This document shows positions 11,260 through 26,646 of a stretch of DNA of 26,646 bases, in pieces (positions within the stretch are counted from its first letter, which is position 1; each line of letters opens with the position of its first letter). Under the pieces are notes generated by a model. It was not told the origin of the DNA. It searched no databases and saw only the letters and a program-made list of their open reading frames with translations. Origin of the DNA: a virus; the IMG/VR virus record IMGVR_UViG_3300045933_000039, positions 1-26,646 of that record; one strand, 5' to 3'. A program made the translations under genes and the position numbers.

Positions 11260-11269
11260 CGCTTCCGGC

Positions 11270-11287
11270 GCGCCCCGACAGGGGCGC
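11270..11287 (+). terminator. 7-bp GC hairpin with GACA loop after the virion protein gene
   Basis: GCGCCCC (11270-11276) and GGGGCGC (11281-11287) form a perfect stem closed by a GACA tetraloop, 10 bases after the stop codon at 11259. Only a short T-run (TTT at 11294-11296) follows, seven bases later, so termination would be weak or partial. It could separate expression of the neck genes from the tail tube gene. Confidence 0.4.
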
Positions 11288-11316
11288 CAGCCGTTTCACA
11301 GGTTGAGCCATGATCT

Positions 11317-11364
11317 CCAGGCCCGCACACGTGCCGCCCTGGTCAGTCGGGAGTCAGACCAGTG
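11317..11364 (+). promoter_or_regulatory. Structured leader, copy C: tail tube gene
   Basis: Hairpin 1 has outer stem CCAGG (11317-11321) with CCTGG (11338-11342), an internal loop CCC opposite CGC, and inner stem GCAC (11325-11328) with GTGC (11331-11334, the apical pair probably open). Hairpin 2 has CTGGTC (11339-11344) with GACCAG (11357-11362), presenting the GGGAG ribosome binding site (11349-11353) in its loop. Its 3' arm reaches the GTG start at 11362. The two hairpins share 11339-11342 and cannot form together. The plan is the same as at 18791 and 23108, but the stems carry compensatory changes. Confidence 0.65.
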
Positions 11365-11763
11365 GCCAGACATGCCGGCGACGATCTCGCCCTCCTGTCG
11401 TCTTCCGCCGAGGGCGGCCCGTACACGTCGATCGGCTGCTTCACGCAGCTGGCGGCGAACAAGACGCGGGACCGCTTCGAGGTGACGTGCGGCGGCGACG
11501 GCAACAAGACGTATGTCCTCGGGAAGCCGGATTTCACGGTCACCGGGACCATGATCTTCGACGACGAGAACACGGCGATCTGGGACGCCGCCGACTCGGA
11601 CACGCCGCTGTTCTACCGGCTGCACCCGGATTTCGCCGACCTGCCGGACTTCTACTGGCAGGGGGAGTTCTACATCGACGCGTCGATCGACATCCCGGTC
11701 GCGGGCGCCATCACGCAAGGCGTGAACCTCGCGGCGGCCGGCACGATCACGCTCAACACGTAG
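11362..11763 (+). CDS. Major tail tube protein
   Basis: This 133-aa protein should stack in rings around the tape measure to make the tail tube. The start is GTG at 11362, with GGGAG 8 bases upstream in a structured leader. The sequence has the pattern of one siphophage tube family: an N-terminal SSAEGGPYTSIGCFT arm, then RDRFEVTCGGDGNKTYVLGKPDFTVTGTMIFDDENTAIWDAADSD. A strand DFYWQGEFYIDASIDIPVAGAI and a closing GVNLAAAGTITL follow. The T/G-rich strand before FDDE and the ending that alternates small residues are typical. Position upstream of the chaperone and tape measure genes agrees. Confidence 0.85.
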   Translation: MARHAGDDLALLSSSAEGGPYTSIGCFTQLAANKTRDRFEVTCGGDGNKTYVLGKPDFTVTGTMIFDDENTAIWDAADSDTPLFYRLHPDFADLPDFYWQGEFYIDASIDIPVAGAITQGVNLAAAGTITLNT

Positions 11764-11794
11764 CCACGGATCAAGTCGTGGCCGGAGGTGGCCG

Positions 11795-12151
11795 ATGAGC
11801 CGCGCGGCCGCCCACGACATCATCTTCAGCGGGCGAGACGGTCAGATCCGCTACCACTCGCATACGGTCGCGCTGCTCACGAAATGGCGGCGCGACCGCG
11901 CCAACCTGGATAAGCGCGTCGGCACCACCGTGGCGCGCCTCACCTTCACCCCCGGCACCATCAATCAATTCTGGGCCAATTTCGGCCAGCCGACGCATGT
12001 CGCCTTGCCCGTGCGACGCAAGAGCAGCGGGACGAATGGGCCGCAGGGGCCGTCACGCCTGCGCGTCTACGAGTTGATCGAGTTCAACCTGGCGGCCGGC
12101 CGTGCGACGTTCCGCACGCCACCGTGCCGCATCGAGGAGCCAATCCGATGA
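11795..12151 (+). CDS. Small tail-region protein of unknown function
   Basis: A 118-aa basic protein between the tail tube and the tail chaperone genes. A GGAGG at 11784-11788 lies 6 bases before the ATG. The middle part (RVGTTVARLTFTPGTINQFWANFGQPTHVALPVRRK) and the end (LRVYELIEFNLAAGRATFRTPPCRIEEPI) look like beta strands with a central helix. I do not recognise a family; a minor tail or tube-associated role is inferred from position. Its stop overlaps the next start (ATGA at 12148), which fixes the start of the chaperone gene. Confidence 0.68.
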   Translation: MSRAAAHDIIFSGRDGQIRYHSHTVALLTKWRRDRANLDKRVGTTVARLTFTPGTINQFWANFGQPTHVALPVRRKSSGTNGPQGPSRLRVYELIEFNLAAGRATFRTPPCRIEEPIR

Positions 12152-13005
12152 CGACGATCGAACAGGCGGACCAGGCCACGGCCTCGCCCGCTGCGCCGCT
12201 GGAGTCCTGGTTTCTGGGGCCGCACGAGCTCGTGCGCCTCGAGGTGGGCGGGCATGGTCTGACCATCTGCCGCGAATTGTCGGCGGTCTCAGAGCACACG
12301 CTCTGGGCGGGCTTCACCGCGGAGAGCGGGCGCGCGGTGCACGACCTCTGGGAAGAGTTCAGCGTGAAGAAGGCGGCTGCCTATCTGGACAGCTGGTCAC
12401 TAGACGTGCCACTGCCACTGGAGTTCGAGGCGAAGGTGGCGATCCTGCGGCAGATGCGGCGCTCGCGATTCGAGCGGCTCTACGAGGCGATCGTCACGCA
12501 CGAGCAGGGGCTGGTGCGGCGGCTGTGGCGGGACCGTTGGTACTCCGCGGCCGAGTGGACCGTCTACCGGGATGGGAATCCCTCCCTCACGCTGCCGGCC
12601 TTCGACGGTTTGCCCGTGCACCTCGAGCCCACCGTCGATGTGAGCGTCGACGACTGGTTCCTGTCGGACGCGCGCCGAGTGCGGCTGATCCTGCCAGGCG
12701 GCCATTGGATCGCGATCCGGCCGGAGCTGACGCAAGGCGAGCACATGGCCATGGTGCTGAGCGCACCGGATCCGAAGGCCGCGACGCCAGCCGATCCGGC
12801 GACGGCCTGGCCTGGCGTGCGCAAGCTCGACGCCTACATCACCGACTGGTCGATGGTCTATCCGAGCGGGAAGCCGGTGCCCATCGGCCGCGACAGCCTG
12901 GCGCAGCTCGACGCCTCGAAGTTCAAAGTGCTGTACGCGACGGTGACCGCGTACGAAACGCAACTGACGCGGGAGCGTGAGGCCCGCCCTATTGGAGCGC
13001 AGTAG
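12148..13005 (+). CDS. Tail assembly chaperone with internal domain duplication (gpG-like)
   Basis: A 285-aa protein directly upstream of the tape measure gene, where lambda-type phages encode the chaperones gpG/gpGT that coat the tape measure until the tube polymerises. The start ATG 12148 overlaps the preceding stop, with GAGGAG about 8 bases upstream. The protein consists of two similar halves. Residues 20-44 (WFLGPHELVRLEVGGHGL, then CREL) match 169-194 (WFLSDARRVRLILPGGHW, then RPEL). Residues 78-119 (AYLDSWSL to RFERLYEAIVTHE) match 229-270 (AYITDWSM to KFKVLYATVTAYE). A usual chaperone has one such domain. The C-terminus overlaps a -1 frame extension. Confidence 0.75.
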   Translation: MTTIEQADQATASPAAPLESWFLGPHELVRLEVGGHGLTICRELSAVSEHTLWAGFTAESGRAVHDLWEEFSVKKAAAYLDSWSLDVPLPLEFEAKVAILRQMRRSRFERLYEAIVTHEQGLVRRLWRDRWYSAAEWTVYRDGNPSLTLPAFDGLPVHLEPTVDVSVDDWFLSDARRVRLILPGGHWIAIRPELTQGEHMAMVLSAPDPKAATPADPATAWPGVRKLDAYITDWSMVYPSGKPVPIGRDSLAQLDASKFKVLYATVTAYETQLTREREARPIGAQ

Positions 13006-13022
13006 TCGACCAGACGCTGCGC
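12987..13022 (+). promoter_or_regulatory. Candidate -1 ribosomal frameshift site with downstream hairpin
   Basis: The zero-frame codons CGC CCT ATT contain CCCT at 12987-12990, allowing a P-site proline tRNA to slip from CCT to CCC. Six bases after CCT begins a perfect 6-bp stem GCGCAG (12997-13002) with CTGCGC (13017-13022), enclosing the zero-frame stop at 13003. A canonical X XXY YYZ heptamer is absent, so the site is a proposal. Confidence 0.4.
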
Positions 13023-13175
13023 ATCTGTCAACGCATGAACGGGTGGACGCCTGCCGACGTGATGCGATTGCCCCGCGGCGTGCACGCGCGCCTCGTGGCG
13101 CTGCTCCTGCAGGATCAGGAACGTGACAAGGCCCCGAGCGGGTTCTCAATGACCGAGGGGTACCGCGACCGCTGA
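12990..13175 (+). CDS. Tail chaperone C-terminal extension in the -1 frame (gpT-like)
   Basis: The -1 frame relative to the chaperone gene is open from 12981 to the stop at 13173-13175. It encodes a plausible protein tail: YWSAVVDQTLRICQRMNGW, then TPADVMRLPRGVHARLVALLLQDQERDK and a short end. The WTPADVxxLP pattern followed by an amphipathic helix resembles the second (T-like) chaperone part in many siphophages. If slippage occurs at CCT 12988, the fusion would be 342 aa. Read as an independent gene it could start at ATG 13035 (46 aa), but no ribosome binding site precedes that ATG and the coding look extends upstream of it. The tape measure ATG follows 13 bases after the stop. Confidence 0.55.
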   Translation, partial: YWSAVVDQTLRICQRMNGWTPADVMRLPRGVHARLVALLLQDQERDKAPSGFSMTEGYRDR

Positions 13176-13188
13176 CCGCTCTCCGACC

Positions 13189-16100
13189 ATGGCCGCCCTC
13201 ACCGCCACGCTGCGCGCCGACATCACGCAATTCGAGCGCGCGCTGACTCAAGCCGAGACGAAAGTCACCGGCCTGCAGCGGTCGACCGCCCAGACGAATC
13301 GCGAGCTCGCGAAGTTCGGCAACGAGTTCGGCGGGGCCACCCTCATCCGTCAAGCCAACCTGATGGCCAAGGCGGTAGAGGACATCGGCGGCGTCACGAA
13401 GCTGACCGCGACCGAGCAGAAACGCCTCGCGGCGTCGGTCGACGAGGCGCTCACGAAGTACCGCGCGCTCGGACAGGAGGTGCCTCCGTCGCTCGTGAAA
13501 ATCTCGAGCGAGCTGACGCGCATCGACAAGGCGAATGAGGAGGCTGCGCGCTCTGCGGCGCACCTGGCCGAACAACAGAAGCGGATGCTCGCCGAGCAGA
13601 AATTCGGATTCGAGCAGGCCGGCGGGGCGGCGTCCACCCTGCGAAACGTCCTCGGTTCTGTCGCTGGGAGTATCGCTGGGGCGTTCACGGTCGGTGCGAT
13701 CGTCAACTTCTCGAAGCAAGTCGTCGCGCTGGGGGGGGAGATCACCGACCTGTCGCAGCGCACGGGCCTCTCCATCGAGGCGGTGCAGGAGTTCAAATAC
13801 GCGGCCGACCAGACGGGCTCCTCGATCGAGACCTTCGCCGGCGCGGTCACGAAACTGAGTGACAAGATCGCCTCCGGCGACAAGGGCGCGGCGAAGGCGG
13901 TCAAGGATCTCGGACTGTCGCTCGCGGCACTGCGCGCCAGCAGCCCAGAAGAGGCATTCACGCAGATCGCCGATGCCATCGGGCAGATTCCCGATCCGAT
14001 GGAGCAGACCCGGCTCGCGCTCGACCTCTTCGGGAAGAGCGGCGCAGAAGTCCTGCCCGCCATCAAAGCCGGATTCTCCGACCTGCGCGAAGAGGCCCGG
14101 CTGACCGGACAGGTCATCTCGAAGGAAGACGTCGCCGCGCTCGACGAGTTCGGCGACCGCTTCGATCGCCTCATGCACCAACTGAAGGTGAGCGCAGCGA
14201 CGGCAGGCGTCGCGATCGGGGACGCGCTCACCTCTGGCTGGCAGCGGTTCCTCCACGCCGTCGACGAGGGGCTGCGCCGCGGGCCGGCCGGCTTCGGGCA
14301 GGGCTTCATGGCGGCGGCCATGGGGCAGCGTGCCGCGGAGAACGCGTCGCAGACCGAGATCGAAAAGGGCCTGGCGCGTCTGGCGCGGATGGATGCGGCG
14401 ATGGGCATCAGGCCGAAGCCGGAATCGTCGGCCGCGGTCGGACCAGACGAAGACGAGCTCAAGCGTCGTGCCGAGGCGGCGAAGAAATACGCCGAGCAGA
14501 TCCGGCTCGCCGTCGAGAAGGCGAACGGGACCGACGTCCAGCGGCAGATCAAGCTCGTTCGCGATGCCTACGATGCGTTGAGCGCCGCAGAACGGCAGAA
14601 CACGACCATCGTGCGGGCGCTGCTCGAGCCGTACGAGCAGCTGCGCCAGCAGGCCCGCGTCCTGCCCATCGAGCTGGAGCGCGCCCGCTCGGCCTTCCAA
14701 AAACCCATCGCGAGCCGTGAGCTCTTCGCTGGTCTCGAGGTCGGCGCCGACGGCGTGGCACGCAGCATCCACAAGATTGCTGGCGCGATGCCAGACCTGC
14801 AGCGTGAGACCGTGCAGGCGCGGAACCTCCTCAACGGGCTGACCGAGGAAGGGCTCATCCCAGCGTCGCGGTCGTTCGCCGGCCTGGCCACGAGCATCGA
14901 CGCCGCCAAGCTGAAGGGGACGGCCGTCACGGGCGTGCTCGTCGAGGCGAAGACGGAAACATTCGACTTGCGCGATGGCCTCGAGGACCTCTCGCGTGCG
15001 TTCGCCGACCTGGCGCAGATCAGCCCGACGGCGCTGGATGGCGCACTGCAAGACTTCGCCGAGTTCGTGGCGCTGGCGAACGTCGCCGCCGCGGCCGGCG
15101 CGCAGCTCAGCGCGGCGCTGAAACAGATAGGCAAGGGTGGCGCGGCGAACGTCGCGGGTGGCCTCATCGGCGGTCTGTCGGGGGCTGTGGGCGCCGTCGG
15201 AGCGCTGGGTGCTGCCACGAACGTGGCTGGCCGCGGGAACCGGGCGGCACGCGGGGCGGTCTCTGGCGGCGCGTTCGGGTTCCAGGTTGGCGGGCCCTTC
15301 GGCGCGCTCGCCGGTGCCGGCATCGGGGCCTTGGTCGGCGCGCTGCGGAATCCCGCATTCGAGGACGTCGGCCGACGGGTGCGCGGCGACTTCGGCGTCG
15401 ACATCCCCGAATCGCTCGCGCGCGCCATCGCCGACCAGGCGAAGGGGTTCAAAGGCGACCGCGCGACAGCGGAGATCGCGAACTTCGCCGGCATTCTCGG
15501 CGCAGCCGGTGGGCCGACGTCCGAGAACCTCGAGCGCTTCAGCAGCAAGCTGCGCGACGTCTTTTCCTTCCTCGAGCGCGGGCAGTTGACGGTCGCGCAG
15601 ACCCGCGACGTCATCGACCAGTCATTCGGCGCCATGGCCGCGGCGGCGCTCGAGGATGGCGGGCTGCTCACCGAGAAGTTGCGCGAGATGATCGCGCTCG
15701 ACGAGCGCTTCGGCACGCAGTCGGCGGCCATCGCCGACGTCGTGCGCGCGTCGCTCACCTCGGGCCTCGGCCACATCACGACATTCCTCGACCACGCGAA
15801 GGTCAGCTCTGAGAGCAGCGCTGCGGCCATCGCCGCGGCCATCGCGGCCAGCTTCGAGAAGCTCGGAGGGGACTCGGAAGCCATCGCCGCGGCCGAATCC
15901 GCCGTAGCGGCCCTGCAGGCGCAGCTCGAGGCGGCTGGTTACAGCGGCGGCGCCGCCTTCGACGCGCTCCGCGAGCGCATCGCGTTCGCGAAGGACGAGC
16001 TCGCCGGGCCAGCCATCACCGCCATTCAGGCGCTCGGCGGCGCACTCACCGACCTGTATAACGGCGGCGTGCTCACCGGCGAGCAGTTCGCCGCCATCGC

Positions 16101-16764
16101 CGGCCAGATCACTGCGACTCGTGCCGAGCTCATCGCGCAGGGAAAGGACGGGAGTCTCGCGACGAAGGCGATCCAGCGCGAACTGCAGGTCGTCTACGAG
16201 TTGCAGCAGCGCTTCGGGGTGAGCCTCGACGACTCCACGCAGGCCCTGCTCGACGAGGCGCGCGCCGCTGGCATCGTCGGCGACAAGTTCAAGTCAGCGC
16301 AGGATCGGATGGCCGACGCCGCCGAGCGCACGGCCGACGCGGTCGAAGCACTGGCGACGGCCTTCGGCTACATCCCGAAGGCGGCCGAGCTCGCGGCGGA
16401 CGGCGCGACGCGTGCGCTGAACAGGATTCCAAAGAACGTCGCGATCGATGTGAACTACAGGACGCCTGACGTCATCATGGGTCCGAACGGCGAGGAGATC
16501 CCGATCGGCGGAGGGAGTGGACGCGAGGGCGTGTGGAATCCCACCGGCGAGGTCATCGGCGGGCCTGGCGGCGACCAGGTCGTCGTCGGGTCGCCGCGTC
16601 GCGACGCGCCCTTCGTGGCGCCCGTGGCCGCTCCGTCGTCGGCGCCGATCGTGGTCAATACCAGCGTGGTCGGGACGGTCGACGGGCGCGTGCTCCTGCG
16701 GTTCGTCTCCACCGAGCTGCCGCGCTACGTCGAAACCATCACCGGCCAGCGCGTGACGGCCTGA
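13189..16764 (+). CDS. Tail tape measure protein
   Basis: This 1191-aa protein sets tail length and is ejected with the DNA. At the family's rough 0.15 nm per residue it implies a tail of about 170-180 nm. Residues 1-135 form a charged, helical coiled-coil start (FERALTQAETKVTGLQ, then NRELAKFG). A hydrophobic stretch follows at about 145-180 (GSVAGSIAGAFTVGAIVNF), then LSQRTGLSIEAVQEFKYA, a segment common in tape measures. Residues about 648-722 are strongly Gly/Ala-rich and hydrophobic (GGLIGGLSGAVGAVGALGA; GAGIGALVGALRNP) and could insert in membranes. The end is beta/Gly-rich. No peptidase or lysozyme domain is evident. The start has only a weak ribosome binding site. Confidence 0.93.
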   Translation: MAALTATLRADITQFERALTQAETKVTGLQRSTAQTNRELAKFGNEFGGATLIRQANLMAKAVEDIGGVTKLTATEQKRLAASVDEALTKYRALGQEVPPSLVKISSELTRIDKANEEAARSAAHLAEQQKRMLAEQKFGFEQAGGAASTLRNVLGSVAGSIAGAFTVGAIVNFSKQVVALGGEITDLSQRTGLSIEAVQEFKYAADQTGSSIETFAGAVTKLSDKIASGDKGAAKAVKDLGLSLAALRASSPEEAFTQIADAIGQIPDPMEQTRLALDLFGKSGAEVLPAIKAGFSDLREEARLTGQVISKEDVAALDEFGDRFDRLMHQLKVSAATAGVAIGDALTSGWQRFLHAVDEGLRRGPAGFGQGFMAAAMGQRAAENASQTEIEKGLARLARMDAAMGIRPKPESSAAVGPDEDELKRRAEAAKKYAEQIRLAVEKANGTDVQRQIKLVRDAYDALSAAERQNTTIVRALLEPYEQLRQQARVLPIELERARSAFQKPIASRELFAGLEVGADGVARSIHKIAGAMPDLQRETVQARNLLNGLTEEGLIPASRSFAGLATSIDAAKLKGTAVTGVLVEAKTETFDLRDGLEDLSRAFADLAQISPTALDGALQDFAEFVALANVAAAAGAQLSAALKQIGKGGAANVAGGLIGGLSGAVGAVGALGAATNVAGRGNRAARGAVSGGAFGFQVGGPFGALAGAGIGALVGALRNPAFEDVGRRVRGDFGVDIPESLARAIADQAKGFKGDRATAEIANFAGILGAAGGPTSENLERFSSKLRDVFSFLERGQLTVAQTRDVIDQSFGAMAAAALEDGGLLTEKLREMIALDERFGTQSAAIADVVRASLTSGLGHITTFLDHAKVSSESSAAAIAAAIAASFEKLGGDSEAIAAAESAVAALQAQLEAAGYSGGAAFDALRERIAFAKDELAGPAITAIQALGGALTDLYNGGVLTGEQFAAIAGQITATRAELIAQGKDGSLATKAIQRELQVVYELQQRFGVSLDDSTQALLDEARAAGIVGDKFKSAQDRMADAAERTADAVEALATAFGYIPKAAELAADGATRALNRIPKNVAIDVNYRTPDVIMGPNGEEIPIGGGSGREGVWNPTGEVIGGPGGDQVVVGSPRRDAPFVAPVAAPSSAPIVVNTSVVGTVDGRVLLRFVSTELPRYVETITGQRVTA

Positions 16765-16767
16765 CAC

Positions 16768-18765
16768 ATGGCCCGGCTCACTACCTTCCAGGTCGATGGC
16801 GTCGAGCTCGCGGCCGACTATCTCATCGACCGATCATTCGCCTTCGAGGAGCAGTTGAGCGGACGCGGGCGCGTGGAGTGCAGCCTCCGGAACTACCGCC
16901 CGGCCGCTCGTGGCGAGATCTTCGTCGGGATGGACGATGAGACGATCTTCGGCGGCGTCCTGTGGGATCAGGAGGAAGACGACATCGCCGGGCCGAGCAC
17001 GGGATACCTGAACCGATCGATCTTCGTCGACCGCTCGGCGCTCCTCGATGTCATCTACTTCAACGAACCGATCGCCGCAGGGTCGCTCCTCTCGCAGTTG
17101 ACCGCCTTCATGGATAACATGGCGCCGCACGGCGTCACGCTCAGCCCTGACCAGGCGACTGGCCCGGATCTGCCGGCGCAAACGTTCGCCTGGATGACGA
17201 TCCGCGAGTGCCTCGAGTCGGTCGGAACGCAGGCCGGCGGGTGGGTCTACACGATCGATCCGAATGGCGTGCTTGAGATGATCGAGCCGGCCGCTTCGGA
17301 TGCGCCTATCACGATCAGTGAGGACCTCGGGAATTATCGGTCGCTCAAGTGGGTCATCAACCGCAACGCCTACCGCAACAACGGCCTCGCGCGCTACGGC
17401 GCGCCAGGGATTCAGCTGATCACGCAGACCTTCGAGGGAGATGGGGCCAATCGCACATACCCGCTGTCTCGCGCGCTCATCCTCACTGGTGGCCTCGTCA
17501 CGCCGACGGGATTGGTCACCGTGGTCCGCGCTGGGCCAGTGACATCAAACGAGACGACCGACGCCGACACGGCTGGCACTGCGCAATGGCATTTCGACTC
17601 GACCGCTGGCACAGTCGGCGCGCTCATCCACGATGACGGGCAGACGGCCCTCCTCGACAACGAAACGATCACGATTAGCTACAACGCCAATTCGCCAGGC
17701 GTCGTGACCTATGAGAACGAAGACGAGGTCGATACCTACGGCCCGTACACGATCGTGCTCGACCTGCCAGACGTCACCGATCTGACGGTGGCGCTCGCGA
17801 TCCTCACTGACGAAGTCAACAAGCGGGTCGGGCTGAACAAACGGGTACGCCTCGTCATCGACGACGCCCGCGTGCGGCCCGGGATGGCGCTGCCGCTCGA
17901 CATCCCATCACGGGATTGCGAGGGAGACTTCCTGGTCCTCTCGCGCCGGGTCATCGAGGAGGCGGTCGGACGCTCCGAGCTGTCCCTCGACGCCGGCGAG
18001 CGGCACTACGCCTTCGAGCTCGACCTGGTTGAAGGGAACCGCTACCGGTCGAACTGGGAGCCATTCTGGGGCCACGACCCTGGCGCGAGCACGGGCGGTC
18101 CGACGCTGACGCCGCCGACGAACACGCCGACGCCAGACTACCCGACGATCCGCGGCACGGATTCCGAGCATACGACCTCGGACACGACAAGCCACGCGAT
18201 CGGGATCCCGACGCACGAAGTCGGCGACTTGATTGTCGTCGTCTTCGCGAACGATGGCAGCGCGACAGTCAGCGTGGCCGGCGGGTCGACGGCTGGGTGG
18301 TCTGAGCTCTGCACGGATCTCGGTTCGGTCAGCTTGGTGCGCGGCAGTGTGTTCACGCTCGTCGCGCCGAGCGCCTCGAGCGTTCTGACACTGACGACGT
18401 CGTCGGCCGAACAGTCGGCGTGGATTGTCTACGTCATCACCGTAGGCACCTTCTCTGGGGTGGACGCCTCGACGGACGGCGGCGGCGGGACCAACTCTGA
18501 TCCTCCGAATCACACGCCGTCGCCGGGGGGCACGCCGAATTACCTCTGGATCGTGACGCGGTGCGGGGATAGCCAGTTCGTGGCATCGGCGCCTCCATCG
18601 AGCTTCGTCTCGATGATCACTGAGCAGGGGACCATCAATGGGGCCAGCGTCAACACGGCGCACCTGGTCGCGGCGGTCTCCTCGCTGAACCCTGGCACCT
18701 GGACGAGCAGTGATTCCGTGTCGTGGGTGACGGCGACGATCGCCGTCTGGCCCACGGGCGCATAG
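16768..18765 (+). CDS. Tail tip / hub protein with extra C-terminal beta domain
   Basis: A 665-aa protein directly after the tape measure, where siphophages place distal tail and hub proteins. Residues 1 to about 430 look like a hub. They begin with a short N-terminal beta domain (TTFQVDGVELAADYLIDRSFAFEEQLSGRGRVEC), then TIRECLESVGTQAGGWVYTIDPNGVLEM, similar to gp27/gpI-like hub segments. A later strand set ends in GDFLVLSRRVIEEAVGRSELSLDAGER. A Pro/Thr linker (about 440-460, TLTPPTNTPTPDYP) leads to a separate beta-sandwich at about 461-665 (VGDLIVVVFANDG, VFTLVAPSASSVLTLTTSS, GTPNYLWIVTRCGDSQF). This appendage resembles the last ORF of the window and may contact the host surface. No separate Dit/Tal pair was found. 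Confidence 0.75.
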   Translation: MARLTTFQVDGVELAADYLIDRSFAFEEQLSGRGRVECSLRNYRPAARGEIFVGMDDETIFGGVLWDQEEDDIAGPSTGYLNRSIFVDRSALLDVIYFNEPIAAGSLLSQLTAFMDNMAPHGVTLSPDQATGPDLPAQTFAWMTIRECLESVGTQAGGWVYTIDPNGVLEMIEPAASDAPITISEDLGNYRSLKWVINRNAYRNNGLARYGAPGIQLITQTFEGDGANRTYPLSRALILTGGLVTPTGLVTVVRAGPVTSNETTDADTAGTAQWHFDSTAGTVGALIHDDGQTALLDNETITISYNANSPGVVTYENEDEVDTYGPYTIVLDLPDVTDLTVALAILTDEVNKRVGLNKRVRLVIDDARVRPGMALPLDIPSRDCEGDFLVLSRRVIEEAVGRSELSLDAGERHYAFELDLVEGNRYRSNWEPFWGHDPGASTGGPTLTPPTNTPTPDYPTIRGTDSEHTTSDTTSHAIGIPTHEVGDLIVVVFANDGSATVSVAGGSTAGWSELCTDLGSVSLVRGSVFTLVAPSASSVLTLTTSSAEQSAWIVYVITVGTFSGVDASTDGGGGTNSDPPNHTPSPGGTPNYLWIVTRCGDSQFVASAPPSSFVSMITEQGTINGASVNTAHLVAAVSSLNPGTWTSSDSVSWVTATIAVWPTGA

Positions 18766-18785
18766 TAGAATACGGGCGACCGAAC
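18766..18785 (+). promoter_or_regulatory. Promoter-like segment preceding leader copy A
   Basis: TAGAAT (18766-18771) directly follows the hub stop codon and resembles a -10 box. AATAC (18769-18773) and GAAC (18782-18785) are shared, with nearly the same spacing, with the segment at 23072-23090. No convincing -35 is visible at 16-18 bases upstream, so promoter function is tentative. Confidence 0.4.
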
Positions 18786-18790
18786 ACACC

Positions 18791-18844
18791 GCAGGCCCGC
18801 GCCGACCGCGCCGCCCTGCAGGATTGACCAGGAGTCCTGCTGTG
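18791..18844 (+). promoter_or_regulatory. Structured leader, copy A: in front of the holin-like genes
   Basis: Hairpin 1 has GCAGG (18791-18795) with CCTGC (18815-18819), an internal loop CCC opposite CGC, and inner stem GCGC (18799-18802) with GCGC (18808-18811). Its apical loop is CGACC. Hairpin 2 has GCAGGA (18818-18823) with TCCTGC (18835-18840), and AGGAG (18830-18834) in the loop. GTG follows at 18842, 7 bases after AGGAG. The two stems share 18818-18819, and the first strand GCAGG could also pair with the last CCTGC. Confidence 0.65.
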
Positions 18845-18952
18845 GCGCGGTCACGTCGTCTCCCTCCTTGCGCGCGGCGTACCGCCATCATCATCGACCA
18901 TCTCGTCGGGTCGTGCCGTCACCAGCGACGCGGCGGCGCGGCCGTGCGCTGA
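18842..18952 (+). CDS. 36-codon ORF behind leader copy A (leader peptide or remnant)
   Basis: GTG at 18842 has AGGAG with 7 bases spacing in exactly the arrangement used by the gene at 23156, so it is probably translated. The 36-aa product begins MARSRRLP, similar to MVRTRSWP of the exported protein at 23156, but then lacks a hydrophobic signal segment and ends after an Arg/Gly-rich stretch. The stop lies 10 bases before the ATG of the membrane protein at 18963, which has no ribosome binding site of its own. Translation of the two could be coupled. It may be a leader peptide or the decayed start of a former signal-peptide gene. Confidence 0.4.
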   Translation: MARSRRLPPCARRTAIIIDHLVGSCRHQRRGGAAVR

Positions 18953-18962
18953 CGCCGCGACC

Positions 18963-19208
18963 ATGCCCACCGCACAGGAGGTCGGATCGTGGGTCACGCT
19001 GGCCGACAAGCTCTCCGTCATCGCGCTCCTGGCTGGGATGCTGGCTGTGGCGCTGATTGGCCTGTATCGAATCTGGTACGTGCCGGGGTGGCTGTACCGG
19101 CAGACCCACGAGGAGCTCGTGCAATCGCGCGCCATGGTGCTGAAGCTGCTGGGGCTCAACGAGCGCCTGGCGGACCTCGCACGATCGCATGGCCCCCGAC
19201 AGGATTAA
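18963..19208 (+). CDS. Small single-span membrane protein, holin-like
   Basis: An 81-aa protein with one clear membrane helix at about residues 17-35 (LSVIALLAGMLAVALIGLY). RIWYVPGWLYRQTHEELVQSR and an amphipathic helical tail (MVLKLLGLNERLADLARS) follow. The pattern of one membrane span, then a VPGxxYR motif and a helical tail, occurs in small proteins beside phage lysis or tail genes that are often annotated as holins. The type is inferred, not proven. It has no own ribosome binding site and probably depends on translation of the short ORF ending at 18952. No endolysin is visible in the neighbourhood. Confidence 0.6.
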   Translation: MPTAQEVGSWVTLADKLSVIALLAGMLAVALIGLYRIWYVPGWLYRQTHEELVQSRAMVLKLLGLNERLADLARSHGPRQD

Positions 19209-19213
19209 GGCCG

Positions 19214-19423
19214 ATGCCCTTGTGCGCCTTGTGGCGGCGGATCTGTCACCGAGTCCGCGAGACGCTGAGGCGCCGCCGGGCCGTTCGAGGTGTCAGCAGT
19301 GTGACCGCCGAACTGTGGGAAGCGATCGCCGAGCGTGAGCGCGCGGTGCGGCGCCTGGAGCTCGAGCTGCAGGTACGCCAGGTCGAGCCGTTGACGCGGA
19401 CACCACCTGGGCCAAGCCGATGA
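19214..19423 (+). CDS. Small basic helical protein
   Basis: A 69-aa protein with an Arg/Cys-rich N-terminus (MPLCALWRRICHRVRETLRRRR) and a short charged coiled-coil (TAELWEAIAERERAVRRLELELQV), ending Pro-rich. A weak TAAGG lies before the ATG at 19214. A GTG at codon 29 (SVTAELWEAIAE) would give a more acidic, purely coiled-coil product and is an alternative start. Its stop overlaps the next gene's ATG (ATGA at 19420). A spanin-like role was considered because of the position beside holin-like genes, but no lipobox or membrane segment is present. Confidence 0.5.
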   Translation: MPLCALWRRICHRVRETLRRRRAVRGVSSVTAELWEAIAERERAVRRLELELQVRQVEPLTRTPPGPSR

Positions 19424-19812
19424 CCGCGCTGCAGGTCGAGATCGGGACGGCGCTCCTCGCTGCGGTTGCCTGCGGCATGCAGATGCGCACGTGCCTGGCG
19501 GCGTGTCGCGACGCCGAGGCGGTCGATCCAGCACGGACTGACCTCGCGCTGCTGGCGCGGGCGCATGCGGTCGCCGCCATCCGGCGGGTCGTCTATTCGG
19601 TGCTCTTCGTGATGGTGACGGTCGTCATGCTGACGATTCCGCCACCGCCTCCAGAATGGGAGGAGCTCGCGCTGCAGCATCGCCTCATGGTGGGGTGGCT
19701 GGCGGCGACGGCCCTCACAAGTGCGTGGGGCGCCGGGGCGGACGCGCTCATGCGGGCGCGCCTGGCGGCGCTCCAGGCCGCGAGTGCGCCGGATGCGACA
19801 CCTGACGCATGA
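19420..19812 (+). CDS. Membrane protein with two to three spans, possible holin
   Basis: A 130-aa protein starting with ATGA overlap at 19420. Hydrophobic segments lie at about residues 8-27 (IGTALLAAVACGMQMRTCLA, moderate), 57-74 (VVYSVLFVMVTVVMLTIP, strong) and 89-106 (LMVGWLAATALTSAWGAG). A PPPPPEWEE loop separates the last two. Two Cys lie in the N-terminal part. The charge distribution and small size are compatible with a holin or antiholin accompanying the single-span protein at 18963, but no family was recognised. It lies in a run of short, overlapping small genes between the hub and the large hydrolase-bearing tail protein. Confidence 0.6.
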   Translation: MTALQVEIGTALLAAVACGMQMRTCLAACRDAEAVDPARTDLALLARAHAVAAIRRVVYSVLFVMVTVVMLTIPPPPPEWEELALQHRLMVGWLAATALTSAWGAGADALMRARLAALQAASAPDATPDA

Positions 19813-20029
19813 GGGCGCCGTGCTCCGCGACCCTCGAGAAACGAAGGCGGCGGCGACTGGCATGGTGCTCAGCCGCACGACTGCGGATGGCCTCGAAACG
19901 TGGTGGTGCTGGCCGGATCGGCTACAGACCTTCGTCCTGGTCTACCGGCATGCGAGCGACGAGCTCGTGACGCGCGTTGAGTCAGGGCGGTGGTTGCGCG
20001 TGCGCGATGCCGCCAAGTGGACGAGCTGA
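19793..20029 (+). CDS. Small protein of unknown function
   Basis: The frame gives 78 aa from ATG 19793. Alternative starts are GTG 19819 and ATG 19862 (55 aa, MVLSRTTADGLETWWCWPDR). None has a strong ribosome binding site, so the start is uncertain. The C-terminal half (TFVLVYRHASDELVTRVESGRWLRVRDAAKW) reads like a small beta-hairpin protein. It overlaps the end of the preceding gene in another frame and stops 4 bases before the large tail protein. No function can be assigned. Confidence 0.45.
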   Translation: MRHLTHEGAVLRDPRETKAAATGMVLSRTTADGLETWWCWPDRLQTFVLVYRHASDELVTRVESGRWLRVRDAAKWTS

Positions 20030-20033
20030 GACC

Positions 20034-22976
20034 ATGAGCGGATTCTTCCCACGGCTGACGCCGACCGGGGTGCACGTCGCGAGCGGGCACGACGTCATCG
20101 ACGTCGACGCGATACCGATCGCCCCGCTCGAGGGCGACCAATTCGCGCACGGGACGAATCCCATTTGGCTCACCGCGAGTGAGATCATCCTCGAGCGCAA
20201 CGTCATCCTGTACACCTACAACCGGCCGAAACACGAGTATGACGGCCGGCTGATGCGCGCCGCGCGGCCGGCCTACATTCCAGAGATCATCGGCCAGTCT
20301 GGCAACGAGCTCGCGGCCGCCGGCGGGCGCTGGTGCGTTTACGAGGCGCCGCCGATCGGCCCGCGCCTGCGCTTCGATGACGGCGTGGTCTGGGCTGGTT
20401 TTTCGCGGCCGGCCTGGAACGATGACGGCCGGCTCTTCGCGTGCACGGTGCAGGCCGACGGCTTGCTGCTCGCGGGCGTGCCGCAAGCAATGGGGCCGAT
20501 CTCGCTTCCCACCGGGATGCCGGCCGTGGGCTGCACAAATCCGACCTGGCGCAGCGGGATGCTGACGTTCGAGGTGGGCGCCCGCATCTACGCTTGGCAG
20601 GACGGTGACGCGTCGGCGACCGACATCACGCTCGGCGCGTGGGAAGCCAAGCCAGTGGCCATCCAGACGCCGACGGGGTGGTGGCTGCTCTCGCACGACC
20701 AGACGCGGGTGATGCTGCGCCCGTGGGGCTCGACGCATGGGATCGTGGTGCACGATGGGCCGACCGATGGCCCGCACGATGCCAGGTGGAACCGGCACAC
20801 CGGGCAGATCCGGGTGGTCTACTCCGTCGGCGGAATCCTGCAGGATCGGTCGTTCGATCGCAACGCGCCGCGCGTTGACCTTCTGGCCGACCCGTGGGCA
20901 CTCGCCGCCGACGGCACGCCGGTGGAGGACTGCTTCGACCTGCTCTTCGGCACGGCGCCAGTCTGGGCGCCAGGGAGCACGCGCGACGACTGCACGATCG
21001 TGATTCATAAGAACGGCGTCCACCCGACCGACCAGCACGAGTGGCGCCGCGTCCTCCCGTCGGCGCCAGTGGATGTCCTGCACTGGTACGACGCCTCACG
21101 AGACCATGATGACGTCGGCTGGTACCTGATCCCCGATCCGATTGGCGTCTACGCGAAGCGTACGTTCCGATCGGGGGACCGCTTCGGCCCGTTCATCGGT
21201 GAGATCGTCGACGTTGACGCCGGCAACGTGCGGAAGTACTGGCAGCACATGCTCGCGTGCTACGCACTCGCGCAGGGCGGCGTGATGTTCGAGATTGACC
21301 CGCGACCCGCGCCGAATCTGTACGGCGATGGGTGGGGTTACGAGAAGTTTTTCAACGCGCCAGGGCGCGTGCGATGGGAGCTCTGGTGCACGGAGCTCAG
21401 CCCTGATGGCAGCACATACGAGCGCCTCCTGCAAACCGCCGAAGACGTCGTCGGGCCTGGCGTGCCAGGGCCCTACGTCGAGTGCCCGCGGCCAGCCACG
21501 CCACCCGACCCACCACCAGATCCGGAGGATCCCGACGTGCCGGTCTACCTGCCGAACGACATCCAGATGGTCAATACCCTCGGCCGCATCCACGTCGAGG
21601 GCTATCTCGGACACCTTCAGCGGGCCCGCGGGATCTTCGACGCACCGAACGGCGCGGTCGGGACAGACATCAAGGATCCGACCCGCGGCGAGGTGTTCAT
21701 CGATGATGATTCGATCAGCGTCTGGACGGGCCGCTACTTCACGTATTTTCAGCAGTTCGCCGGCGACCATGAACGCGCGATCCGCCAGGTGCTCGAGGAC
21801 ATCTACAACAGCGACGAGGCGCGCCAGAAGCGCGGGGAACTGCCGCCACCGCCGACCACGATCGCCGGGCCCATCCAGATCACTGGGCGCACGTTCGCCG
21901 ATGACCGCGGGCCCTACTTCCCACTCGGCGCCTCGGCGCTCTACGCCCTGGCCGACGGTCGCGACCCGCGCGCTCTCTTCGACCAGTACGCGGCCGAGGG
22001 GATCGAGTGGGTGCGCGTCTTCGGCGGCTACCTCGATGGCCGCGGGCAGACGGCGGCCAGCGCGCGCGCGCGCTTCCCGCAGGTCCTCTCGTGGGCGCAC
22101 GAGCGCGGGCTGCGCGTGCAGCTCGACCCGGTGACCGACAGCGCCTACGGGACGTATGACGTCTGGGAGCACGTCTACCTGTCCGCGCTACTCGGCGCCG
22201 ACGTAATGACGCTGGTCAACGAAGTCGGCCACGACACGCAGCGCGACTTCTCGCGCCAGGAACTGCTCGAGCTCCGCGACCATGCGCGCGCCGCTGGGTT
22301 CACGGGCCCGATCGCGCTGGGCGCTCCGGTCGACCTCGACGAGCTCCCTGAGCCTGGCGTCGACTTCCCGCTCGCCGGCGGCGATTACATCCCGGTGCAT
22401 CTGGCACGTGGGAAGACGCCCTGGTACCGCGAGGGCTGCCGAGTCAAAGAGCAGTGGGAGATCAGCAGGCACCACGGCGTGCCGACGCTCAACGAAGAAG
22501 AGAACCGTGTCGAAGACACGGGCTATCCAGTCGGGTTCGCGTACCTGACGGCCATCCTCCCACGCGGGTTCGGGGGCGGCACCCTGTTTCACAGTGCGCA
22601 GGCGCGCGAGGCCACCGCCGCGCTCAGCGGCGTGCAGCTCGACGCGCTGCGAGCCTTTGTGCGGGGGCAGAACGTCCTCCGCGACAGCCGCGGGCCGCTG
22701 ACCTTCTACAACGCGCGCGCCGCCGGATCGCCGGTCGGGACGGCGGCCTTCGTCGAGCCGATACCAGGGGATCCAGAGGGGGAGACAGTCTGGCGCTGTT
22801 ATTCGTTCGTGGCTGGTAACGAAGGCATGGTCGTGATCTGCGGGCCGAATCCCGACGACCCGCGGATCGTGTGGGCGAACGGGTGGGAGCAACGCGGGGT
22901 GCTCGATCGCGTGCCGGTCGGTGGCAGCACGCCGGCCGAGGGCGGAGGGGTGACGGTGCTCTATATCGGGCGCTGA
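20034..22976 (+). CDS. Large tail protein with a clan GH-A-like glycoside hydrolase domain
   Basis: A 980-aa protein. Residues 1 to about 330 are beta-rich with repeated Trp-containing strands (GRWCVYEAP, GRLFACTVQAD, MLTFEVGARIYAWQDGD, GWWLLSHDQ), suggesting a propeller-like domain. A Pro-rich linker lies near 484-505. From about 610 the chain reads as a (beta/alpha)8 barrel: PYFPLGASALYAL, EGIEWVRVFGGYLDG and LSWAHERGLRVQLDPV. These lead to VMTLVNEVGHD with the clan-A Asn729-Glu730 pair (acid/base) and GVPTLNEEEN with Glu821-823 (candidate nucleophile). A beta C-terminus follows. It probably degrades a host surface polysaccharide during adsorption. Substrate is unknown; the fold assignment is by motif and needs structural support. 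The ATG at 20034 follows the previous stop closely. Confidence 0.72.
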   Translation: MSGFFPRLTPTGVHVASGHDVIDVDAIPIAPLEGDQFAHGTNPIWLTASEIILERNVILYTYNRPKHEYDGRLMRAARPAYIPEIIGQSGNELAAAGGRWCVYEAPPIGPRLRFDDGVVWAGFSRPAWNDDGRLFACTVQADGLLLAGVPQAMGPISLPTGMPAVGCTNPTWRSGMLTFEVGARIYAWQDGDASATDITLGAWEAKPVAIQTPTGWWLLSHDQTRVMLRPWGSTHGIVVHDGPTDGPHDARWNRHTGQIRVVYSVGGILQDRSFDRNAPRVDLLADPWALAADGTPVEDCFDLLFGTAPVWAPGSTRDDCTIVIHKNGVHPTDQHEWRRVLPSAPVDVLHWYDASRDHDDVGWYLIPDPIGVYAKRTFRSGDRFGPFIGEIVDVDAGNVRKYWQHMLACYALAQGGVMFEIDPRPAPNLYGDGWGYEKFFNAPGRVRWELWCTELSPDGSTYERLLQTAEDVVGPGVPGPYVECPRPATPPDPPPDPEDPDVPVYLPNDIQMVNTLGRIHVEGYLGHLQRARGIFDAPNGAVGTDIKDPTRGEVFIDDDSISVWTGRYFTYFQQFAGDHERAIRQVLEDIYNSDEARQKRGELPPPPTTIAGPIQITGRTFADDRGPYFPLGASALYALADGRDPRALFDQYAAEGIEWVRVFGGYLDGRGQTAASARARFPQVLSWAHERGLRVQLDPVTDSAYGTYDVWEHVYLSALLGADVMTLVNEVGHDTQRDFSRQELLELRDHARAAGFTGPIALGAPVDLDELPEPGVDFPLAGGDYIPVHLARGKTPWYREGCRVKEQWEISRHHGVPTLNEEENRVEDTGYPVGFAYLTAILPRGFGGGTLFHSAQAREATAALSGVQLDALRAFVRGQNVLRDSRGPLTFYNARAAGSPVGTAAFVEPIPGDPEGETVWRCYSFVAGNEGMVVICGPNPDDPRIVWANGWEQRGVLDRVPVGGSTPAEGGGVTVLYIGR

Positions 22977-23071
22977 ACGGGCTGGCCGGGCGCCGGTTGG
23001 CCGCTGGGAGGGAGGCGCAGCCCCGCGCCTTCGCGGTCAGCTGGCGCCCACCAGGGTGCGTGGGTCAGGGT
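22977..23071 (+). other. Intergenic GC-rich stretch before leader copy B
   Basis: No gene was found in this stretch. It contains a short inverted repeat, GGCGC (23013-23017 region) with GCGCC, and other GC-rich self-complementary bits, but no T-run. A strong intrinsic terminator is therefore not supported. CTGGCGCCCAC near 23041 loosely resembles CTGGCCCAC upstream of leader copy A. Confidence 0.3.
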
Positions 23072-23090
23072 TACAATACAAAGGCTGAAC
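23072..23090 (+). promoter_or_regulatory. Promoter-like segment preceding leader copy B
   Basis: TACAAT (23072-23077) matches a -10 box at five of six positions. AATAC (23075-23079) and GAAC (23087-23090) are shared with the segment at 18766-18785. A recognisable -35 is missing at the usual distance. If active it would start the transcript carrying leader copy B. Confidence 0.45.
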
Positions 23091-23107
23091 GTCCCACCAG
23101 ATTGCAC

Positions 23108-23158
23108 GCAGGCCCGCGCTGGCGCGCCGCCCTGCAGGATGCGAGGAGTCCTGCTGTG
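23108..23158 (+). promoter_or_regulatory. Structured leader, copy B: exported repeat protein
   Basis: Hairpin 1 has GCAGG (23108-23112) with CCTGC (23131-23135), an internal loop CCC opposite CGC, and inner stem GCGC (23116-23119) with GCGC (23124-23127) around TGGC. Hairpin 2 has GCAGGA (23134-23139) with TCCTGC (23149-23154), and AGGAG (23144-23148) exposed in the loop. GTG follows at 23156 with 7 bases spacing. Copy B is nearly identical to copy A in the stems and in the region from AGGAG to the start, but differs in the apical loop and in the spacer between the hairpins. Confidence 0.65.
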
Positions 23159-26100
23159 GTGCGCACACGTTCTTGGCCTGTTCTGCTCGCTGCGATCGGG
23201 CTGTGGCTTGTCGCGCGGCCGGCCTCAGCGCAATCCTTCATCAGCTCGGGTCAGTCGGCGACCATCACGGCGGATGAGGGCTGCGTCATCATCCGCACGA
23301 ATGGCCTCGGCGCCGGGTCCATCCGGTTGTCAGGGTTCGGCACGGCGACGATCCAATTCGAAGCCACGAACATCAACACGAGTGCCGTCGCCTCCTGCTC
23401 GACGACCGGCTGGTCCGCGCTCTCGGTCGTGCCGAGTGGTGGCGGGTCTGCGGTCACGTCCGCAACGGCCGATGGACAGTGGGCGGCGTCGGTCGGCCCC
23501 TACATCATGTTTCGCGCGCGTGCCAGTGACCATTCGAGCGGCACGATCACCGTTACGCTCGCGACCGGCCAGGGCGGTGGCGGGACGCAAGGCGATTTGA
23601 CGCTCGAAGGTGACGTGACGGTCAGCGACGTCACCGTGACGGCGTCGGCCCTCCCGACAGGCGCGTCGACGGAAGCGACGCTCGCGAACGTCCTGACCTC
23701 AGCGAATTACGCCGCGGCGTTCGGCGCCGCCGGCACTGCGGATACGCAGGTCATGTCGGTCCAGGGCATCGCGTCGATGACACCGCTCCAGGTGCAGAGC
23801 AACAGCGCCAACCTCGCGACGGAAACGACCCTCGGCAGCGTGTTGACCTCGACGAACTTCGCCGCGGCATTCGGCACGGCTGGCACGGCTGACACACAGG
23901 TCCTCAGCGTGCAGGGCATCGCGTCGATGACGCCCCTGCTCACGACCACGACGCTCAACGCCGAAACGACCAAAAACATCGGGACGGTTCGCCTCGCGGA
24001 TGGAGCCGGCACCGCGATCACGAGCGCGACCGCCGGAAGTTTCCAAGCGCTGACGATGCACGTCGTTGACAGCTCAGGAAACATCGTCAGCAGCTTCGGT
24101 GGAGCCGGCGGCACCTCGAGTGCGTTCGGTTCGACGTTCCCATCTGGCGCCGGATCTGGCACGGCGGTGGGCTTCACCGACGGCACGAACATGCAGGGGG
24201 CGCGGGTCGTGGACCTCGATACCGGAGGCGGGACGGTCTACGGCCTGATGGCGAACCCGGTGTTCCGTGCCTCTGGCGGGCCGGTCGAGGCGTTCACCAG
24301 CTCTAACCCTGGCATCGTCTCAGGCTCGGGCTCGGCAGGGACGGCGGCCGCTGGTGTCGTCACGGTGCAGGGCATCGCGAGCATGACGCCGGTCCTGGCG
24401 ACGCTGAGCGGCACGAACAACATTACCAACATCAGCGGGACGATCAGCCTGCCGACCGGCGCCTCGACTGCGGCCAAGCAGCCGGCGCTCGGGACGGCTG
24501 GCTCTGCTTCGTCTGACGTCATCACAGTGCAGGGCGTGGCCTCCATGACGCCCCTCCTGGCTACGCTCTCCGGCACGAACAACATCGCGACCGTGACGAC
24601 CGTCTCGACGGTCTCGGCGGTCACGGCTATCTCGAACGCGCTCCCGGCCGGCAACAACAACATCGGTGATGTCGACGTCGCTTCGATCGCCTCCTTCCCG
24701 GACAATGAACCATTCAACGTCGCGCAGTGGGGCGGGACGGCGGTCGTCGCGGGAGGGACCAACGGCACGGTGGCGATCGGTGGTATCCAGGCCGCCGATG
24801 CGGCGATCTCAGGGAATAACCCGGTGCTGGTCGCCGGGTTCGGCTCGAGCACGCTCCCGACCGCAATGAGCGCGAGCGGGGACGTGACGCGCCCCTGGCT
24901 GACGCTGAACGGTGTGCTGAACATCACCGGCCGCACGGTGACGGGTGACTCCACGACGGACGATACGTTGGACGCCGTGAAGGTGACGAACAGCACGGCC
25001 TCCACGGCCACCAGCTATCTGACGGCACGCCTGTCTGACGGGACGAACTTCCTCACGACCGGCACCGACTACACGCATGATGCGGCGCTGACGATTGGGT
25101 CCTCGGCTGGCCCGCTGACGGTGGGCCGGGCCTCGGCGGCGGCGCCGACGAACGTCAGCGCGGACGATGACGCGGTCGCGGCATGGTTCCTTCGGAACGG
25201 CTCGCAGGTCGTCAACCTCGCAGCGGGTGGAACGTTGATCACGGCGACGAGTTCATCGCTGAACGTGGCCTGCACGACCGGCTGTTCGGGTGGGACGCAG
25301 TACGCGGAGGACGCCGCGTTCACGACGGGTGATTCCACGACGCTGGCTGGTGTCGTGCGGGCCGATACCAAGGGGACCGGCATCGGCGCGAATGGCGACG
25401 TAGCGGTCCTGCAAGTCAACAGCTCGGGCGAGTTGTACGTCACGAACACGGGCAACGTGGCGCACGACGCGGCAGGCACGAGCGTGAATCCTGTTCTGGT
25501 GGGCGGCTATGCCTCGCAGGCCGCGCCGAGCGACGTCAGCGCAGACGGCGACGCGACCAGGTTGTGGACGCTGCGCAACGGCTCCATCGTCAGCAACTTG
25601 GCGGCCGGTGGCACCCTGATCACGGCTACGAGCAGCAGCCTGAATGTCAACCTGACGAATACGTCGGTGTCCGTCAATCCAGGCACGGCGGCCAACTTCG
25701 GGATCTATGTCGAGGACGCTGGGGAGACGGCCGGTGGGAATCTGATGATGGCTGGCGCTGTCCGACGTGATACGGCGGCCAGTTCGGCTGGCACCACAGG
25801 AGACAACGCATCATTCAACACCGACGCCAGCGGCCTGCTGTGGGTTCGACACCTGGACCCCTGCGCGGGTGCGTCCGGAAAGACGGCGTTCGTCGTGAAT
25901 ATCTCGTCGGCGGCTACGACCGAGATCACGCCAAGCCTCGCCGGCGCAAGCAATCACTACTACGTGTGCTCGATCAACCTGGTCACGGCCAGCGCGAACA
26001 ATGTGGCGCTGGTCGACGACGACAGCGACGGCTGCGGCTCCGTCTCCTCCGGGCTGGCGGGCGGCACGTCCGCCGCGAGCGGCTGGAACTTCGGGGCCAA

Positions 26101-26230: not shown

Positions 26231-26646
26231 CCCGGCGACTGCTGATCGCGTGCAGCGTCCTCGTGAGCCTGTGCCTCGCTAGTGTCCAGGTGTCGGCAGA
26301 CGTCGCCGTTGTCCAAACGAAGAACGCCGGCACCGCGAATCCATTTGTTACGGACGGGATCGCTGAGATCAGCTTCGACAGTGCTGCCTCGACCGGTAAT
26401 CTACTCATTACCTGCTTCGGGGTCCCGACGGCCGCGCGCAATGTCACGAGCGTGAACGCTACCGGGGATGGCGCACTCACGCTCATGGCTCAGGGCGGGA
26501 CGAACGCGACGGCCGAAGTGGCCGGCAACGCTGAGGTCTGGTGTTACTCGAGGGTCGCTGGCGCGAGCGTGACCGAGATTGTCGTCACGCTCAGTTCTGC
26601 GGTGGCGGCGGACGCGCTGTTCTTCACGATGGAAGTGAGCGGGCAG
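26227..26646 (+). CDS. Signal-peptide protein with beta domain, cut by the window end
   Basis: At least 140 aa; the gene continues beyond the window. ATG 26227 overlaps the previous stop (ATGA), so it is co-translated with the fibre-like gene. The N-terminus is a clear signal peptide: MTRR, then LLIACSVLVSLCLASV, then QVSA before Asp25. The rest is a beta protein with NLLITCFGVP, ALTLMAQGG, AEVWCYSRVAGASVTEIVVTLSSAV and LFFTMEVSG. The order and spacing resemble the C-terminal domain of the hub protein (about residues 485-570 there). Such domains in phages often sit at the tail tip; here it would be exported. No function is known. Confidence 0.65.
   Translation, partial: MTRRLLIACSVLVSLCLASVQVSADVAVVQTKNAGTANPFVTDGIAEISFDSAASTGNLLITCFGVPTAARNVTSVNATGDGALTLMAQGGTNATAEVAGNAEVWCYSRVAGASVTEIVVTLSSAVAADALFFTMEVSGQ

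Follow-up and report, generated by a model that had tools for sequence, protein, structure and literature searches.

A repeated leader element with two competing predicted RNA folds at GTG start codons of a tailed phage

The window analysed here, the whole stretch of 26,646 nt, is a complete IMG/VR record with about 67% GC, and its packaging, head and tail genes are those of a tailed phage known from environmental DNA only. Three copies of a leader element claimed by a first-pass annotation were all present, at 11317-11364, 18791-18844, and 23108-23158 (sites 1, 2, and 3). The genes behind them are listed below; L235 and L241 are sequences of a second, related phage.

11362 to 11763, plus strand: major tail protein (tail tube) gene with a GTG start; 82% identical ortholog at L241:728-1132
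18842 to 18952, plus strand: 36-codon ORF opened by the GTG of site 2, its stop lying 10 nt before the ATG at 18963
18963 to 19208, plus strand: gene of an 81-aa protein with an ATG start, one apparent membrane helix and a holin-like position
23156 to 26230, plus strand: exported late protein gene with a GTG start and the signal peptide VVRTRSWPVLLAAIGLWLVARPASA; ortholog at L235:8480-11548

The assignment of the site 1 gene to the tail tube was supported by its ortholog, which matches phrog_1407, a major tail protein family, with an E value of 7.5e-10; a predicted structure of the tail protein was discarded at a mean pLDDT of 29. All three GTG starts had been placed in front of genes. This applies to sites 1 and 3, which begin long genes, but the GTG of site 2 opens just 36 codons, and therefore two sites, not three, lead straight into long genes. 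The ATG at 18963 has no evident Shine-Dalgarno sequence, and the 81-aa protein is possibly translationally coupled to the 36-codon ORF. No family match was found for the 81-aa protein, and the label 'lysis-type' given to the site 2 gene is unproven. The exported protein shares 49% identity with its ortholog over 114 aa at the N-terminus, and the two genes have the same leader.

Several neighbouring features were also observed. Late genes with apparent signal peptides stand in a row in the window (23156-26230 and 26227-26646) and in the second phage (L235 7338-8341, 8480-11548, 11561-11962, and 12552-13346), and such a row of products is unusual for a phage tail region. The 23156 gene contains tandem-like repeats at 23667-24585 with a spacing of 150-162 nt (families D1 and D2), probably corresponding to repeated protein domains. 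The 12148 gene had no family match and is followed by a 184-nt gap before the tape measure gene (window 12148-13189); this stretch may encode a frameshifted tail assembly chaperone. A GC-rich hairpin, GGCGCGCCCCGACAGGGGCGCC (11266-11290), stands after the 10756 gene and ahead of the site 1 leader; it has no U-tract and may be a weak terminator or a processing site, and its reading as a terminator proper was set aside because of the missing U-tract. Likewise, TAGAAT/TACAAT, located upstream of sites 2 and 3, lacks a matching -35 and was not kept as a promoter. Neither intrinsic terminators (GC-rich hairpin with U-tract) nor sigma-70 -35/-10 hexamers were found in the three leaders.

A structure descriptor (5-bp stem, CCC, stem of at least 3 bp, loop, CGC and 5-bp stem, followed by a second hairpin, a Shine-Dalgarno sequence and a start codon) had exactly three matches in the window. 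A covariance model of the upstream hairpin, hairpin 1 (H1; model R2), which the first-pass annotation had suggested as a check, scored the three sites at 45.5, 42.8, and 39.7 bits and the next best position in the window at 16.9 bits, a separation of more than 20 bits. The pattern CAGGCCCGC(2-16)GCCGCCCTG appeared in 0 of 300 dinucleotide shuffles of the whole window. Given this separation and these shuffles, we conclude that the repeat is real. Its conserved blocks are CAGGCMCGC (block A) and GCYGCCCTG (block B), spaced 6-9 nt apart in the window copies, and sites 2 and 3 are near-duplicates. The leader sample comprised five copies from two related phages, three in the window and two in the second phage. 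The distance from Shine-Dalgarno to start was 7-8 nt in all five, in agreement with what had been claimed for the GTG starts. All five leaders begin with GTGG, compared to GTG at 1 of 29 other starts, an excess that is no more than suggestive because the comparison starts were picked by hand and one retrieval pattern demanded GTGG.

A retrieval pattern for the 3′ half of the element returned 47 contigs, most of them coding-like by inspection. L235, from IMGVR_UViG_3300046482_000283, is a related phage carrying the element at the ortholog of site 3, and its metagenome also holds L121, a contig identical to the window phage. The tape measure of this second phage is 57% identical to that of the window, and its major tail protein 82% identical. 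At the site 3 ortholog the element precedes the GTG at L235 8480, with the blocks CAGGCACGC at 8387 and GCCGCCCTG at 8449. At the site 1 ortholog, located in L241 (the first 2.6 kb of the second-phage contig), CAGGCCCGC at 645 and GCTGCCCTG at 696 occur in order (L241:645-704) before the GTG at 728. The search for further copies in related phages, another check suggested at first pass, therefore yielded the element at two orthologous genes, those of sites 1 and 3. A counterpart of site 2 was not seen in the second phage, whose contig begins inside the tail region. The blocks are 42 and 53 nt apart in the second phage, where the same H1 outer stem and internal loop lead into an extended inner hairpin. 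Both blocks in order were found in 0 of 40,000 shuffles of either second-phage leader, and the fairer figure for the site 3 ortholog leader is block A alone, found in 358 of 40,000; since that ortholog was retrieved by its block B, full independence holds for the site 1 ortholog alone.

Wider searches covered several other sets. Exact-pattern scans of IMG/VR and GTDB genomes with the full window motif gave chance matches in coding sequences among those inspected, and the covariance model R2 gave nothing convincing in 24 relatives selected by terminase, portal or tail-protein similarity. The element was absent from the distant tail-protein relatives L125 and L242, and a tail-protein search of about 1,900 genomes from five phyla found no close provirus.

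H1 was located in the three window copies as follows.

11317 to 11342, plus strand: H1 of site 1, CCAGG-CCC-GCA-CACG-TGC-CGC-CCTGG; minimum free energy (MFE) fold of the segment, with outer pairs at P 0.88-1.0
18791 to 18819, plus strand: H1 of site 2, GCAGG-CCC-GCGC-CGACC-GCGC-CGC-CCTGC; from descriptor, covariance model and fold
23108 to 23135, plus strand: H1 of site 3, GCAGG-CCC-GCGC-TGGC-GCGC-CGC-CCTGC; from descriptor, covariance model and fold, with its ortholog at L235:8386-8458

The unconstrained MFE of the 5′ segment was H1 in all five leaders, including those with 42 and 53 nt between the blocks. The internal loop is near-invariant, CCC or CAC standing opposite CGC or TGC between invariant pairs. 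The site 1 copy had been described as altered in the outer stem, the inner stem and hairpin 2 (H2) with pairing kept in each, and this was confirmed apart from the length of the inner stem, which is limited to 3 pairs because GCAC/GTGC would leave a 2-nt loop. Over the five leaders, 95% of H1 cells were paired, two pairs were changed on both sides, and the covariation score of the five rows was equalled by 3 of 500 shuffles. These pair counts give modest support to RNA pairing. Covariation had been asserted for all three stems; the H1 pairs are indeed kept, but the covariation in H1 amounts to two base pairs and is weaker than asserted.

The second fold, H2, places the start codon within a stem. 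Its positions in the window are as follows.

11333 to 11366, plus strand: H2 of site 1, CTGGTC (11339-11344) with GACCAG (11357-11362); from folds and pairing by eye
18804 to 18852, plus strand: extended H2 of site 2, GACCGCGCCGC (18804-18814) with GTGGCGCGGTC (18842-18852), and GCAGGA (18818-18823) with TCCTGC (18835-18840)
23120 to 23168, plus strand: extended H2 of site 3, GCGCGCCGC (23122-23130) with GTGGTGCGC (23156-23164), and GCAGGA (23134-23139) with TCCTGC (23149-23154)

At site 1 the Shine-Dalgarno sequence GGGAG (11349-11353) lies in the loop, and GCC/GGC or GCCGC/GTGGC spans the GTG at 11362. AGGAG lies in the loop region at site 2 (18830-18834), where the GTG is wholly paired, and at site 3 (23144-23148), where the GTG is also paired. 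H2 is thus longer than first noted: the bases just 5′ of its first arm pair with the start codon and the next codons, GCCGC pairing with GTGGC or GTGGT that contains the start codon, and this pairing is extended by 6 further pairs at site 2 and by 4 at site 3. The proposal that H1 and H2 exclude each other stands by way of this longer H2, but not for the 6-bp H2 as drawn. That hairpin overlaps H1 by 4 nt at site 1; at sites 2 and 3 the overlap is just 2 nt, and the two hairpins largely coexist there (-21.8 vs -22.0 kcal/mol at site 2).

As assessed by eye, the H2 stem has been rewritten with pairing kept: site 1 has GGTC/GACC, sites 2 and 3 share GCAGGA/TCCTGC, and the ortholog of site 3 has GCAAGGA/TCTTTGC (start hairpin at L235:8449-8484). 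Each of these sits within the GCCGC/GTGGC(T) stem, with CCT opposite one nucleotide. The competing fold at the site 1 ortholog differs in both sequence and layout, consisting of CTCGACAT/ATGTCGAG, GGTCAC/GTGACC, and CCGC/GTGG, yet the outcome is the same, H1 being lost and the start codon paired. Among 23 window starts, sites 2 and 3 had the lowest folding z-scores (-4.03 and -3.11), and the site 2 hairpin alone reached z -5.4 (0 of 1000 shuffles). The folding energy of site 1 was ordinary (z -0.4) and not significant alone, and the z-scores of the second-phage leaders were unremarkable.

Fold preference changed as the RNA was lengthened. The third outer pair of H1 had P of at least 0.96 in the 5′ segment and at most 0.05 past the start codon in all five leaders; in four of them P(H1) began near 1 and was under 0.1 by a point -3 to +2 nt from the start-codon end, and in the fifth by -16. 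H1 lost by 3.3-12.9 kcal/mol to the competing fold, which in all five leaders pairs bases of the start codon. Compared with shuffled downstream parts, this loss had p values of 0.26, 0.0025, 0.047, 0.018, and 0.018 in the five leaders (Fisher 6e-5), the downstream competition at site 1 not being significant alone. When one of the near-duplicate sites 2 and 3 was left out, the combined value became 1.5e-4 or 1.6e-3 (1.6e-3 without site 2). A heuristic path search put the refolding barriers at 10-15 kcal/mol, a rough figure that would allow H1 to last for seconds to minutes. When H1 was imposed on the fold, the orthologs of sites 1 and 3 had an unpaired start codon and site 1 a partly unpaired one. 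At sites 2 and 3 of the window, much of the start codon still paired within a small local hairpin downstream, and at the ortholog of site 3 the imposed H1 left the Shine-Dalgarno sequence paired. The model thus does not give a clean open state in every leader. Without constraint, the start codon's middle U was mostly unpaired in two ensembles, those of site 1 and of the site 3 ortholog. The alternative-fold computation, which had also been suggested at first pass, found two competing folds at the start codon. These computations show a repeat that is conserved at orthologous genes and forms both folds, with a preference that changes with RNA length.

On balance, we hold with moderate confidence that each copy is a cis-acting leader RNA with two folds that would control translation initiation of the next gene, and that the element probably controls the timing at which these proteins are produced. 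The middle segment, made up of GCYGCCCTG and the bases immediately 5′ of it, would pair either upstream, forming H1, or downstream, forming a fold that would hold the GTG start region in a stem with the Shine-Dalgarno sequence in or beside the loop inside that stem. H1 would form first on the nascent RNA. Since the start-sequestering fold is far more stable once the start codon has been made, the start would by default be closed or poorly used. Initiation would rise with anything that stabilised H1 and so kept the middle segment off the start region. The CMC/YGC internal loop is nearly invariant and lies between invariant pairs, and is thus a candidate binding site for an H1-stabilising factor; its conservation suggests that such a factor may recognise H1. 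We infer that both folds exist in the cell, that translation drops when the closed one forms, and that the balance between them is set by a phage or host factor. The translational switch proposed at first pass is upheld in part, as to selected RNA structure, competing folds and action at the start codon, though not as to the lysis-type label.

The main rival is a timer that works without any factor, in which a metastable H1 would keep the start open for seconds to minutes until refolding shuts the gene off, as in the MS2 maturation gene. H1 does form ahead of the competing fold and loses to it thermodynamically as soon as the start codon has been transcribed, the refolding barriers fit a delay, and both MS2 and hok provide a precedent. 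However, a timer leaves the conservation of the CMC/YGC loop, which goes beyond pairing, unexplained, ribosomes following the RNA polymerase in a tailed phage would upset the timing, and the barriers stem from a heuristic search, so we regard this explanation as unlikely. It is more doubtful still that the leaders are a conserved or duplicated ribosome-binding region whose alternative folds arise by chance at 67% GC. Many GC-rich segments fold, and the z-scores of site 1 and of the second-phage leaders are unremarkable, but conserved blocks 45-95 nt upstream of the start reach past a plain ribosome-binding site, H2 stems are altered and still paired, the downstream competition exceeds that of shuffles, and sites 2 and 3 are outliers among the 23 starts.

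If the inverted repeat were a DNA operator or part of a promoter, as suggested for ESAS (a repeat associated with phage start codons, described below), the RNA pairing would be a by-product of its symmetry. Comparable repeats upstream of start-associated sequences in cluster K were judged likelier to be DNA sites, and in Adephagia they overlap SigA-like promoters. We consider such an element very unlikely; the window sites have no sigma-70-like promoter. A half-site spacing ranging from 6 to 53 nt is implausible for a dimeric DNA-binding protein, and since H1 is kept with 6-53 nt between the blocks, an RNA hairpin is favoured over a DNA operator; besides, the two halves are consistently unlike (CCC vs GCG as DNA half-sites), and copy-to-copy differences mostly keep pairing, unlike in ESAS. 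The lowest probability of all was given to an RNA-processing or stability element, such as an RNase III-type site between late genes, with secondary effects on translation. Long near-perfect hairpins between late-operon genes, especially at site 2, would suit such a role, but it gives H1 no obvious task, the start codon, always GTGG, is built into the stem, and the hairpins at sites 1 and 3 and in the second phage are shorter or irregular.

Returning to the two-fold leader, we advance only tentatively the broader idea that it may represent a new class, a phage-encoded two-state switch with a conserved internal-loop receptor that is reused across the late operon, so that translation of the major tail protein would be opened or closed by one phage or host signal, along with that of other late proteins. 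If confirmed, this would mean that a DNA phage sets the dosage or timing of its late proteins with an RNA switch used several times over, and the element would found an RNA family not yet in Rfam.

The first-pass annotation recognised no described motif of this shape. Rfam agreed, with zero matches at the gathering threshold over the whole window and only far sub-threshold ones at permissive settings, but start-associated repeats of this general kind (SAS/ESAS) have been described in actinophages. As in translational riboswitches and protein-responsive leaders, an upstream hairpin with a conserved internal loop is accompanied by an exclusive start-sequestering hairpin, and two exclusive folds, one of them closing the start, were predicted in all five leaders. 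Unlike the cis-regulatory leaders in Rfam, the element matches no family, is very small and precedes genes that are not metabolic. Leader hairpins and delayed folding control translation of the MS2 maturation and lysis genes (PMC6071253; PMC6582335), where a transient upstream hairpin likewise opposes a stabler fold closing the ribosome-binding region; the window element, in contrast, belongs to a dsDNA tailed phage, is reused before several genes and has a conserved internal loop, and its kinetics are estimated by computation.

SAS/ESAS elements, found in cluster K mycobacteriophages (PMC3203893, PMC11373665) and cluster EF Microbacterium phages (PMC7302621), are the closest described elements. 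They too are repeated intergenic elements of one genome that lie directly before several starts and hold the ribosome-binding site, and the window element, like SAS, occurs within a few nt of several start codons in one genome. Upstream, both carry an imperfect inverted repeat whose spacer varies in length, a likeness that is partial. ESAS is an imperfect 17-bp inverted repeat upstream of SAS with a spacer of usually 4-13 bp; the inner spacing in the window is 6-9 nt (42 and 53 nt in the second phage), with arms shorter than the 17 bp of ESAS. The 13-bp SAS sequences GGGATAGGAGCCC (K) and GGGAAAGGACCCC (EF), with up to 3 mismatches, had 4 and 2 scattered matches in the window where 8.4 and 7.1 were expected, and no match fell at any of the three sites. 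Changes in the ESAS repeat were judged not to support RNA pairing (PMC3203893), a trait not shared here, with 95% of H1 cells paired and two pairs changed on both sides. SAS/ESAS lie in the non-structural half of the genome, whereas the window element precedes late structural and exported genes; its start is always GTGG and part of the fold, and its apical insert reaches 53 nt. Judged by arrangement, the element would work like an SAS/ESAS pair while not being a member by sequence. For more than ten years start-associated repeats of actinophages have been known but have lacked a mechanism, and competing hairpins, one of which contains the start codon, kept at orthologous genes of two phages, offer a testable one.
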